A stretch of 64,000 nucleotides of DNA, taken from contig JAFZYY010000001.1 of the NCBI GenBank assembly GCA_017616015.1, positions 186,001 through 250,000 of the forward strand, read 5' to 3'. Origin of the DNA: Alphaproteobacteria bacterium. Its GTDB lineage: Bacteria; Pseudomonadota; Alphaproteobacteria; CAAGCB01; CAG-977. The position numbers and the translations under genes are program-made. Each line of letters begins with the position of its first letter. The first letter of the stretch is position 1. A model generated the notes under the pieces. That model had not been told where the DNA came from, did no database searches, and saw nothing but the letters and a program-made list of their open reading frames with translations. This document shows, in pieces, positions 41,827 through 45,648 of this stretch.

Positions 41827-42645
41827 ATGCAAGATCAGGATATGGATACTTCTCAGGAAGATATTCTCGCTTCCTTTCGGGAAGAAAGGTTGGAACAACG
41901 CAGAAAAAAGCCGGCTATCCTGATCGGCGTGTCAATCGGGATTGTCATCGCCGTTGTTGTCGGCTGGATTACGTTCGGCAAATATGTATCCGTTTATTAC
42001 GGGGCGGACAGAGCCGAATTGCCCGTTATCCGGGCGGATTCTTCCGCCGACGGCATGAAGCCGGCGACGCCGGGCGGCATGGAGGTTCCCAATCGGGACA
42101 AACTGGTATATGAACGGCTGCGTCAAAACAAATCGGAACTGCCGGTTGAACGGCTGTTGCCGTCTGCGGAAAAGCCTTTGAAACCGGAACCGTCGGAAAA
42201 AGAAGAGCCGAAACAGAAAGACGAAATAGGAGCTTTGACGGCAAATATTATTCAGGAAGAGCAGAAGCAAGCTTCCGCTCTGTTGTATGAGGAAGACGGA
42301 ACGCCGGTTGAGGTCGTGTTTAAAGAAACGCCTGCCGCTGTAGAAAAAGCGGAAAAGAAAGAGCTGCCGCCAAAGGAAGAGGAAAAACAGGCGGAACAGA
42401 AGATTTCCTATTCGGTTCAGTTGGTTTCGACACGTTCGGAAAGCGCGGCGGAAAGCGAATGGAAGCGTTTGTCTAAGAAGTTTAAAGAAATTATAGCGGA
42501 GCAACCGCATTTCGTTTCAAAAACGGTTGTTTCAAGCGGAACGTTTTACCGCTTGCGCGTCGGTTCTTTTGAAAAAAGGGAAGATGCCGCTCTTTTGTGC
42601 GAACAGTTGAAAACAAAAAAACAGGAGTGCTTCGTTGTTAAATGA
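41827..42645 (+). CDS. SPOR-domain inner-membrane protein
   Basis: The 272-residue protein has a cytoplasmic N-terminus and one transmembrane helix (about 33-51, ILIGVSIGIVIAVVVGWITF). A Pro/Glu/Lys-rich periplasmic linker leads to a C-terminal SPOR domain (YSVQLVSTRSESAAESEWKRL...FYRLRVGSFEKREDA). SPOR domains bind denuded peptidoglycan at division septa. The gene lies between argS and nagZ, the usual alphaproteobacterial place, and overlaps nagZ by 11 bases. Confidence 0.88.
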   Translation: MQDQDMDTSQEDILASFREERLEQRRKKPAILIGVSIGIVIAVVVGWITFGKYVSVYYGADRAELPVIRADSSADGMKPATPGGMEVPNRDKLVYERLRQNKSELPVERLLPSAEKPLKPEPSEKEEPKQKDEIGALTANIIQEEQKQASALLYEEDGTPVEVVFKETPAAVEKAEKKELPPKEEEKQAEQKISYSVQLVSTRSESAAESEWKRLSKKFKEIIAEQPHFVSKTVVSSGTFYRLRVGSFEKREDAALLCEQLKTKKQECFVVK

Positions 42646-43663
42646 ATATCCTTCCGCCGTAGTATTCGGTTGTGCCGGTCTGGCTTTGAGCGATGAGGAA
42701 AAAGAGTTCTTCAGTCGCGTTAATCCACTTGGTTTTATCTTGTTTTCGCGTAATATCGCCACGCCGGAACAGTTGAAAACGCTGATACAGTCTTTGCGCG
42801 AAACGGTCGAACGCGAAGACGTCGTGTTTTTGATCGATCAGGAAGGCGGACGCGTTTCCCGTTTAAAGCCGCCGTATTGGCTGAAATATCCGCCCGCCAG
42901 AACTTTCGGCGACAAGTACCGGATTGATCCCGAAGACGGCGTTCAGGCCGCTTATGAAACGGCTCGCCTGATCGGGCGCGATCTTTGTGAATTAGGGTTT
43001 AACGTAGATTGCGCGCCTGTCTTAGATGTGCCTGTGGAAGGCTCTATCGATACGATATTAGGGGACAGGACTTTTTCTCTGGATCCCGAACTGAACGGAC
43101 CTTTGGGTAAAATCATCTGCGACGGTTTGCTGGCGGAAGGCGTTCTGCCGGTCGTCAAGCATATGCCGGGACACGGACGCGCCGTCGTGGACAGTCATCT
43201 GGAACTGCCTAAGGTTTCTACCGATTTGGAGACGCTGAAAAAAACGGATTTTGTGCCGTTTAAATTCTTGGCGGACGCGCCGTGGGGCATGACAGCGCAC
43301 GTTCTGTATACGGCAATCGACGCGCACAAGCCGGCCTCGCTGTCCAACAAAGTGATACAGGACATTATCCGCGATGAAATAGGCTTTAAAGGCTTCCTGA
43401 TTTGCGATGATTTGTCAATGAAAGCGTTGTCCGGTTCTCTGTCTGACTTGGCCGCGGAAGCTTTAACGGCAGGCTGTGACGCCGTGTTGCACTGCAACGG
43501 CAAAATGGACGAAATGGAATTGGTCGCTTCCGGCGTCGAGCCGCTGTCGCCTCGCGCGATGGAACGTTTTGTGCGCGGTCAGGAAATGGTTAAAGCGGTC
43601 GTTGAACAAACAACCGCGTTTGATTATGACGCGGCCAAATCGCGCCTGTCAAAAACGGCTTGA
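42635..43663 (+). CDS. nagZ: Beta-N-acetylhexosaminidase NagZ
   Basis: NagZ (GH3) removes N-acetylglucosamine from muropeptides during peptidoglycan recycling. The 342-residue protein begins at TTG 42635, eight bases after AGGAG. Motifs include FLIDQEGGRVSRL, NVDCAPVLDVP, VVKHMPGHGRAVVDSHLELP and FLICDDLSMKAL. It is the right length for a single-domain NagZ. The downstream M50 gene begins 4 bases after its stop. Confidence 0.95.
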   Translation: MLNEYPSAVVFGCAGLALSDEEKEFFSRVNPLGFILFSRNIATPEQLKTLIQSLRETVEREDVVFLIDQEGGRVSRLKPPYWLKYPPARTFGDKYRIDPEDGVQAAYETARLIGRDLCELGFNVDCAPVLDVPVEGSIDTILGDRTFSLDPELNGPLGKIICDGLLAEGVLPVVKHMPGHGRAVVDSHLELPKVSTDLETLKKTDFVPFKFLADAPWGMTAHVLYTAIDAHKPASLSNKVIQDIIRDEIGFKGFLICDDLSMKALSGSLSDLAAEALTAGCDAVLHCNGKMDEMELVASGVEPLSPRAMERFVRGQEMVKAVVEQTTAFDYDAAKSRLSKTA

Positions 43664-43667
43664 TTCA

Positions 43668-44579
43668 ATGGATTTTTCAGGAACGGTTTTATCGGCGGGA
43701 GAATGGGCGGTTCCGGTCGTTTTCGCGGTTGTTTTGCATGAAATTGCGCACGGATATGCGGCGTTGTGTTTCGGGGATACCACCGCGCGGGACATGAAAA
43801 GACTTTCTTTGAATCCGTTGCGCCATGTGGATCCTGTCGGAACCGTCTTGTTTCCGTTGATTTTAATTCTGACAAGCTCTCCGTTCGTTTTCGGTTGGGC
43901 CAAGCCCGTTCCCGTTAATTTCGCGCGTTTAAGACACCCTAAAAAAGACATGGTTTGGGTGGCTTTGGCCGGGCCGGCGATGAATTTGTTCCAGGCTTTA
44001 TGCGCTTTTTTCGTATTGAGCGTTTGTAAAAATGTTTTGCACACCGGTTTGCCGATAGAGATACAGCGATTTTTATTAAATATCATAGTGTTAAATCTGT
44101 CTGTAATGACCTTTAATCTGATTCCCGTTTTGCCGATGGACGGCGGACGGATTGTGACGGGATTGTTGCCGTTGAAGTGGGCGGTCAGGTTTGCCAAAAC
44201 GGAAAGATACGGCTTCGGGATCATAGCTTTTTTATTGATTTTACTGCCTGTTCTGGGCAATTATATAGGGCGGGATCTTGATATTGTTTCCCGTTTTTTG
44301 GCGATTACCGTTCAAAACCTTGCTTCGTTTTTTGTTGGTTTTTTCGGCTTGGGAGAAAAGGAAAGTATTATGGGAATAGGTTTTTTCCAACTTTTGATTA
44401 TTCTGTTGATCGTTTTAGTCCTGTTCGGGCGCGGCAAACTGCCCGCTTTGGCGGAAGACTTAGGAAAAAGCGTCAGCGCGTTTAAAAAAGGACTGAACGG
44501 GGATAAGGAAGAAGAAAAGAAAGAAGCCCCGAAAGAAGAAAATAAAACGGCAGAAAACGATCAACCCAAGAAAGAATAA
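43668..44579 (+). CDS. Site-2 protease (M50)-TatA continuous reading frame
   Basis: A single uninterrupted frame of 303 codons holds two proteins usually separate. Residues 1-234 form an M50 intramembrane protease: HEIAH at 24-28 and FNLIPVLPMDGGRI with catalytic-site Asp158, in a multi-helix protein. Residues 235-303 are a complete TatA: MGIGFFQLLIILLIVLVLFGRGKLPALAEDLGKSVSAFKKGL, then a charged tail. No stop lies between them. An internal ribosome site (AAGGAAAG) precedes Met235 by seven bases, so TatA may also be made on its own. TatB and TatC follow directly, so this is the only TatA of the cluster. Confidence 0.88.
   Translation: MDFSGTVLSAGEWAVPVVFAVVLHEIAHGYAALCFGDTTARDMKRLSLNPLRHVDPVGTVLFPLILILTSSPFVFGWAKPVPVNFARLRHPKKDMVWVALAGPAMNLFQALCAFFVLSVCKNVLHTGLPIEIQRFLLNIIVLNLSVMTFNLIPVLPMDGGRIVTGLLPLKWAVRFAKTERYGFGIIAFLLILLPVLGNYIGRDLDIVSRFLAITVQNLASFFVGFFGLGEKESIMGIGFFQLLIILLIVLVLFGRGKLPALAEDLGKSVSAFKKGLNGDKEEEKKEAPKEENKTAENDQPKKE
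44351..44372 (+). promoter_or_regulatory. tatA: Internal ribosome-binding site and TatA start within the M50 frame
   Basis: GGGAG (44351-44355) and AAGGAAAG (44358-44365) stand before ATG 44370-44372, which opens the 69-residue TatA part. Its strength suggests independent TatA synthesis from the same message. Confidence 0.6.
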
Positions 44580-44582
44580 TCC

Positions 44583-44846
44583 GTGTTCGGAATCAGTTCG
44601 GCCGAGTTTGCCGTCATTCTTGTCATTGCTTTGCTGATTGTCGGGCCGAAGCAAATGCCGGAAGTTTTACGTGCGGCCGGGCGGATCTATAAAAAGCTAA
44701 ACCAATTTGTTAAAAAGTCATCGCAAGCCATTGATGATATTATGTATGATGCGGATAAAATAGCGGATAAGGCGGAAAAAGCCCTGCTTTCCGAACAGGA
44801 TAAAAAGTCCCCTTCGTCAGAGGATAAAAAAGCCGATGACAAATAA
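44583..44846 (+). CDS. tatB: Sec-independent translocase protein TatB
   Basis: The 87-residue protein begins at GTG 44583 and has the family opening MFGISSAEFAVILVIALLIVGPKQMPEVLRA, a short amphipathic helix and a Lys/Asp-rich tail. TatB with TatC forms the receptor for twin-arginine signal peptides. It is short for TatB, but the FGIS-E motif and the place between TatA and TatC support the call. It overlaps tatC by 11 bases. Confidence 0.9.
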   Translation: MFGISSAEFAVILVIALLIVGPKQMPEVLRAAGRIYKKLNQFVKKSSQAIDDIMYDADKIADKAEKALLSEQDKKSPSSEDKKADDK

Positions 44847-45648
44847 AGTTTTGCCGCCTGATTTGATTGATGAAAAAAGCGATAATCAGGAGGGGCTGAT
44901 GACGTGGGCCGGGCATTTGACGGAATTGCGAGGCCGTATTTTAAAAGCGCTGTTCTTTTTTGTGTTGGTTTTTATCGTTCTTTATCCGTTTTCCGGAAAA
45001 ATTTTAGAAATTCTGATGCTGCCTTTGGCTCAAGCCATGCAAAAGGCCGGCGGATCTCACCGCATGATTTTTACGGGCGTTGCGGAAGGTTTTGTTACGC
45101 ATCTGAAACTATCCGCGTTTGGCGCGGCGGTGCTCAGCTTTCCGTTTCTGGCCTTTCAGATATGGCGCTTCGTTGTTCCGGCTCTGTATGAAAATGAAAG
45201 GCGCTTTGTCCGTCCGCTTTTTATCGCTTCGCCGATTTTGTTCGTTTTGGGGGCGTTTTTCGTTTTTTTCGCATTGATGCCCGTGGCTTTCCGCTTTTTG
45301 CTTTCTTTTCAGCAGCTGGCGACTTCGGATAAGGTGCTGCCTGTTGTTTTGGAAGCCCGTTTAAGCGAGTATCTGTCCTTTCTGATGACGCTGATTTTGG
45401 CGTTCGGCATAAGTTTTCAGTTGCCGGTCGTGTTGGTGATATTGGGAAAATTAGGCGTTATTACCGCCCGAAATTTGAAGGATTTCCGCCGTTATGCCAT
45501 TGTTTTTATTTTTATCGCGGCGGCCGTTCTGACACCGCCCGATGTAATCAGTCAGCTGGCTTTGGCTGTTCCTTTGATTTTTTTATATGAAAGTGCCGTT
45601 TGGTGCATACAGTCCCTTGAAAAGAAAGATGATCAGGGCTATAAGTAA
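44836..45648 (+). CDS. tatC: Sec-independent translocase protein TatC
   Basis: The 270-residue protein has six hydrophobic segments, the N-terminal HLTELRGRI motif (LTELR recognised in signal-peptide binding) and FEVPVVLV-like FQLPVVLVILGKLGV. It is the multispanning receptor subunit of the Tat translocon. The start overlaps tatB. serS follows after a 31-base U-rich gap. Confidence 0.96.
   Translation: MTNKVLPPDLIDEKSDNQEGLMTWAGHLTELRGRILKALFFFVLVFIVLYPFSGKILEILMLPLAQAMQKAGGSHRMIFTGVAEGFVTHLKLSAFGAAVLSFPFLAFQIWRFVVPALYENERRFVRPLFIASPILFVLGAFFVFFALMPVAFRFLLSFQQLATSDKVLPVVLEARLSEYLSFLMTLILAFGISFQLPVVLVILGKLGVITARNLKDFRRYAIVFIFIAAAVLTPPDVISQLALAVPLIFLYESAVWCIQSLEKKDDQGYK

Follow-up and report, generated by a model that had tools for sequence, protein, structure and literature searches.

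A site-2 protease gene and tatA joined in one open reading frame in most members of an alphaproteobacterial genus

The site-2 proteases mjS2P (MJ0392), SpoIVFB and RseP have in common an HExxH motif and a DG motif, both of which recur in the protease described here, and SpoIVFB and mjS2P follow one common topology in which the cytosolic domain of SpoIVFB comes after TM6 (PMC11486902). TatA of the Tat system lies in the membrane with its N-terminus outside and its C-terminus inside (PMC11867995). The closest described meeting of an intramembrane protease with TatA is in Providencia stuartii, where pro-TatA bears an N-terminal extension of 8 residues, does not bind TatC or form large assemblies while it does so, and is relieved of the extension in trans by the rhomboid AarA acting near the periplasm (PMC3712462). 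A different association is genomic, since other Alphaproteobacteria have a region nagZ-M50-scpA-scpB-tatABC in which, as in the present locus, tatA lies downstream of an M50 gene and shares its orientation.

The present analysis concerns a 64,000-nucleotide stretch of alphaproteobacterial DNA (the window) from an assembly of 2.1 Mb that is 98% complete. Positions 43668–44579 are one open frame of 303 amino acids without a stop (open reading frame check, table 11), in which residues 1–228 are an M50 site-2 protease, 229–234 a linker, GEKESI, and 235–303 a TatA beginning at Met235 (44370); by sequence both parts are full-length. Both also exceed their Pfam gathering cut-offs, M50 with 39.2 bits against 27.2 and TatA_B_E with 50.9 bits against 21. 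The initial annotation had described an uninterrupted protease-to-TatA frame with a HEIAH motif, Asp158 and a TatA start at 44370, and all of these are present. The junction reads GLGEKESIMGIG. The features of the locus are as follows.

42635–43663, plus strand: upstream gene, presumably nagZ (beta-N-acetylglucosaminidase-like), named from general knowledge of such sequences; an open reading frame whose product lies next to M50 in family loci by tblastn
43668–44351, plus strand: M50 site-2 protease part, residues 1–228 (PF02163; profile match to mjS2P 3b4r)
43737–43751, plus strand: HEIAH zinc-binding motif, residues 24–28, near-invariant in an 88-sequence alignment
44139–44141, plus strand: Asp158 of the DG motif, third zinc ligand, from sequence and alignment
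44283–44345, plus strand: C-terminal helix of the protease, residues 206–226, putative TM6 (AlphaFold helix 206–225, high pLDDT)
44352–44369, plus strand: six-codon linker GEKESI, from alignment with genus relatives
44358–44362, plus strand: AAGGA, Shine-Dalgarno core of tatA within the linker, 7 nt before the ATG (−7.3 kcal/mol)
44370–44579, plus strand: tatA, continuing the protease frame as residues 235–303, 69 amino acids when free (PF02416 and TIGR01411 above cut-off)
44583–44846, plus strand: tatB, with a GTG start (open reading frame, Pfam, family loci)
44836–45648, plus strand: tatC (PF00902, 228.7 bits)

Four bases separate the nagZ stop from the protease start. The first 228 residues are assigned to the M50 site-2 proteases, predicted to cleave within the membrane, on several grounds. 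Their profile matches the solved site-2 protease 3b4r (E 2.9e-14) as well as 8vjl and RseP, and mjS2P and SpoIVFB are the best Foldseek matches (probability 1.00, with a modest TM-score of 0.35–0.46). In an AlphaFold model built from the 88-row alignment the protease has a mean pLDDT of 88, and HEIAH sits inside a helix spanning residues 3–34, with positions 24, 25 and 28 near-invariant among the homologues. The third zinc ligand, Asp158, lies in PMDGG on a later helix. The model also shows both the helix and the amphipathic helix of the TatA part, while residues 233–235 at the junction have pLDDT below 50. Since the profile aligns to mjS2P only from TM2 on (query profile 8–40 on 34–66), the protease appears to be without TM1, and its N-terminus should be outside. 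The last protease helix is moderately hydrophobic, about like TM4 by hydropathy and moment; if it crosses the membrane, the linker and Met235 would be cytoplasmic, opposite to the N-out orientation of TatA, a placement that is likely rather than certain.

Residues 235–303 score 65.3 with the TIGR01411 tatAE model (cut-off 53.9) and fall below the cut-off of the tatB model, which identifies them by sequence as TatA rather than TatB, and the part is complete, with transmembrane helix, FGRGKLP hinge, amphipathic helix and charged tail. Directly downstream in the window are tatB and tatC, the end of the former overlapping the start of the latter by 11 bases (44836–44846). At 44577–44585 tatA ends in TAA-TCC, and the tatB GTG after it keeps the frame of the M50-TatA fusion; tatB is in this frame in most other genus members too, so that losing a further stop would extend the fusion into TatB.

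The fused frame is real, and it is shared within the genus. Seven genomes of the genus were sampled and six have the locus; biological loss in the seventh (G006) was considered and rejected, as the contig ends inside tatC. Five of the six, the window included, have a stop-free junction, with M50 and TatA Pfam domains detected in all five fused species, and over the whole frame the fused relatives are 66–81% identical to the window in protein sequence. One of them (JAFVAT010000026.1) is an alphaproteobacterium from roe-deer rumen. The initial annotation had looked to close relatives for a clear stop, and such a stop does occur, in the sixth genus member (L006, unfused, TAA) and in other genera, with the remaining five members stop-free. 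M50 and tatA are distinct genes in the remaining two genera of the family, with an in-frame TAG in L007 and, in L008 and L011, stops plus a tatA that lies in a different frame. Outside the genus no spanning M50-TatA frame was present among the matches listed, sorted by score, in a 386-genome sample of the class. The stops in L006 and in other genera therefore indicate a stop loss limited to this clade. In a tree built from NagZ, TatB, TatC and M50, L006 falls within the fused species, though this placement is weakly supported. A fused clade is not rejected (AU p = 0.30), and there may have been one loss, two losses, or a loss with regain of the stop in L006.

Fourfold-degenerate sites of the M50 part differ by 45–73% between genus members, which is near saturation, and the fusion must therefore be old. 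In spite of this saturation the proteins keep 61–83% identity and every fused species has an intact active site; to judge from this pattern of conservation, the predicted enzyme is very probably translated and kept by purifying selection. Persistence of the open junction is less telling. Under simple codon models a neutral six-codon linker would stay stop-free in four to five independent lineages with a probability of about 0.14–0.28, and stop-free persistence alone is therefore compatible both with selection for the fusion and with its absence.

The second linker codon of the window, GAA (44355–44357), occupies the position of TAA in L006 and of CAA in three other species; GAA occurs in two and CAA in three of the fused species. 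The junction of L006 runs FGLA-stop-GGGV-Met, with TAA as the second codon after FGL, and the distance to the TatA ATG is six codons there and in the fused species alike. Across the five fused species the linkers vary freely (GEKESI, EEGESI, TQGDGV, TQREGI, IQGEKG), as expected if selection acts only on the Shine-Dalgarno sequence. The TatA ATG itself is invariant and preceded by a Shine-Dalgarno sequence in all five, with pairing of −7.3 to −9.4 kcal/mol. The value of −7.3 kcal/mol in the window bears out the good internal ribosome site seen in the initial annotation; a pairing of −7.0 kcal/mol is reached at only 2–3% of the window's in-frame internal ATGs, and the protease start has a weak Shine-Dalgarno sequence of −1.7 kcal/mol. 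In each genus genome with the locus the TatA/B family numbers exactly two proteins, namely TatB and the TatA described here; a search for a further tatA found none, either in the window genome or in the other five that carry the locus. Internal initiation at 44370 is therefore the likely supply of TatA, and free TatA is probably made from this start. The initial annotation had suggested that one locus could make both a fusion and free TatA; the open frame and the internal start are both in place, and synthesis of the two products would follow from them.

The neighborhood of these genes in other Alphaproteobacteria points to how the fusion may have arisen. The initial annotation had taken separate M50 and tatA genes to be commonly adjacent in the class, but scpA intervenes in the three other genomes examined (G043, G050 and G012), with scpB as well in G043 and G050, the two tested. 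The two genes stand side by side in this family and, apparently, in at least two further lineages of the class, L116 (G388) and L124 (G141), where M50 is directly before tatA and stops separate them; this suggests that adjacency arose more than once. ScpA (PF02616) and ScpB (PF04079) were undetected in the whole genomes G000, G001 and G008 of the window's family, which are 94–98% complete, and the same search detected both in other Alphaproteobacteria. As a separate matter, this family, on the evidence of those three genomes, may be without the standard condensin partners. We infer that loss of scpAB likely came first and loss of the stop second. In the first step scpA and scpB would have been lost from between the M50 gene and tatA, leaving a protease stop that overlaps the tatA Shine-Dalgarno sequence, TAAGGAGG, as is still the case in L006. 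In the second step the stop would have been lost, giving CAA in three fused species and GAA in two, and the frames joined; a single T to C change in an L006-type junction gives CAAGGAG and a fused frame.

Taken together, we think it probable that this is a genuine, clade-limited fusion reached in two steps, in which a protease-TatA fusion is the sole protease product, its tail is tolerated and free TatA is initiated internally. With no stop between the parts, ribosomes on the protease frame would continue through TatA, and the protease would exist as a protease-TatA fusion unless cut afterwards. The Tat system would be served by free TatA, for which ribosomes would initiate independently at the internal site that has been kept; the TatA part of the fusion would most likely not work as a Tat subunit but be a tail that the protease tolerates at its C-terminus. 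Both proteins would be made, with the tail neutral, although little of the fusion might survive intact if it is rapidly degraded or if translation ends early by programmed termination.

An alternative explanation, which we consider unlikely, is a selected regulatory device in which the targets of the M50 part would be its own TatA tail or neighboring Tat components. TatA would then be a pro-form in cis, akin to the pro-TatA that a rhomboid processes in Providencia. It is consistent with an open frame that has outlasted synonymous saturation in five species and with a protease active site intact in all of them, and an intramembrane protease activating an N-terminally extended TatA has precedent (PMC3712462). 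However, the internal Shine-Dalgarno sequence and ATG are retained in every fused species, so that free TatA needs no processing, the linker sequence is not conserved, the stop-free junction has the appreciable neutral probability given above, L006 of the same genus does without the fusion, and the protease C-terminus is by homology cytoplasmic, the wrong side for TatA. That the fusion is functional in the specific sense of a site-2 protease releasing or withholding a covalently attached TatA, a protease switch for Tat built into the genus, seems to us improbable.

The initial annotation had seen the fusion itself as a TatA subunit tethering the protease to Tat assemblies. The TatA part is indeed complete in its transmembrane helix, hinge and amphipathic helix, and the strong positive charge after the TatA helix favors a C-in orientation. 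With TM6 crossing, however, the N-terminus of TatA would start in the cytoplasm, and in Providencia as few as 8 added N-terminal residues abolish TatA-TatC binding and inactivate TatA (PMC3712462). Two points, the cytoplasmic junction expected by homology and this effect of the Providencia extension, speak against the TatA part as a working Tat subunit and make coupling of the protease to Tat assemblies unlikely. We also think it unlikely that termination, frameshifting or proteolysis close to the junction keeps free protease the main product: the low-confidence junction could be flexible and cleaved, but there is no stop in the frame, and the junctions differ among species with no conserved slippery site seen by eye. 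An assembly or base-calling error at one position, an option in the initial annotation to which the multi-contig draft state of the assemblies might lend weight, is excluded because four further fused species, separately assembled, have the same open junction in different codon contexts.

If the fusion is made, the genus offers a natural experiment both on how a membrane protease tolerates a further transmembrane protein at its tail end and on how a start within another gene secures the supply of TatA; L006, with a stop at the same codon, is a ready control. Were the fusion functional, it would connect Tat transport with intramembrane proteolysis, a connection of which the Providencia rhomboid is the only case found in the literature searched. 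Even if it is neutral, annotation pipelines may miss tatA here by calling one long open reading frame.

M50 proteases and TatA are each well known, and the new part is their natural fusion, kept in most of a genus; no report of a natural M50-TatA fusion was found in the literature searched. Compared with the six-helix site-2 protease core, the window protease is without TM1 and without a CBS or PDZ domain, and bears TatA as a C-terminal tail. The transmembrane helix, FGRGKLP hinge, amphipathic helix and charged tail of E. coli TatA (2mn7, 2lzr) are all matched in the window TatA, which differs in being embedded behind a protease in a longer frame while also having its own start. Like pro-TatA and AarA of Providencia stuartii, the locus combines an N-terminally extended TatA with an intramembrane protease, but the extension here is an unrelated metalloprotease plus linker of 234 residues, and where Providencia has only extended TatA and requires rhomboid cleavage, an unextended TatA with Shine-Dalgarno sequence and ATG is encoded in all five fused species. 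Finally, tatB and tatC follow tatA in the window's family, and relative to the nagZ-M50-scpA-scpB-tatABC region of other Alphaproteobacteria this family is without scpA-scpB and has, in most of one genus, lost the M50 stop.
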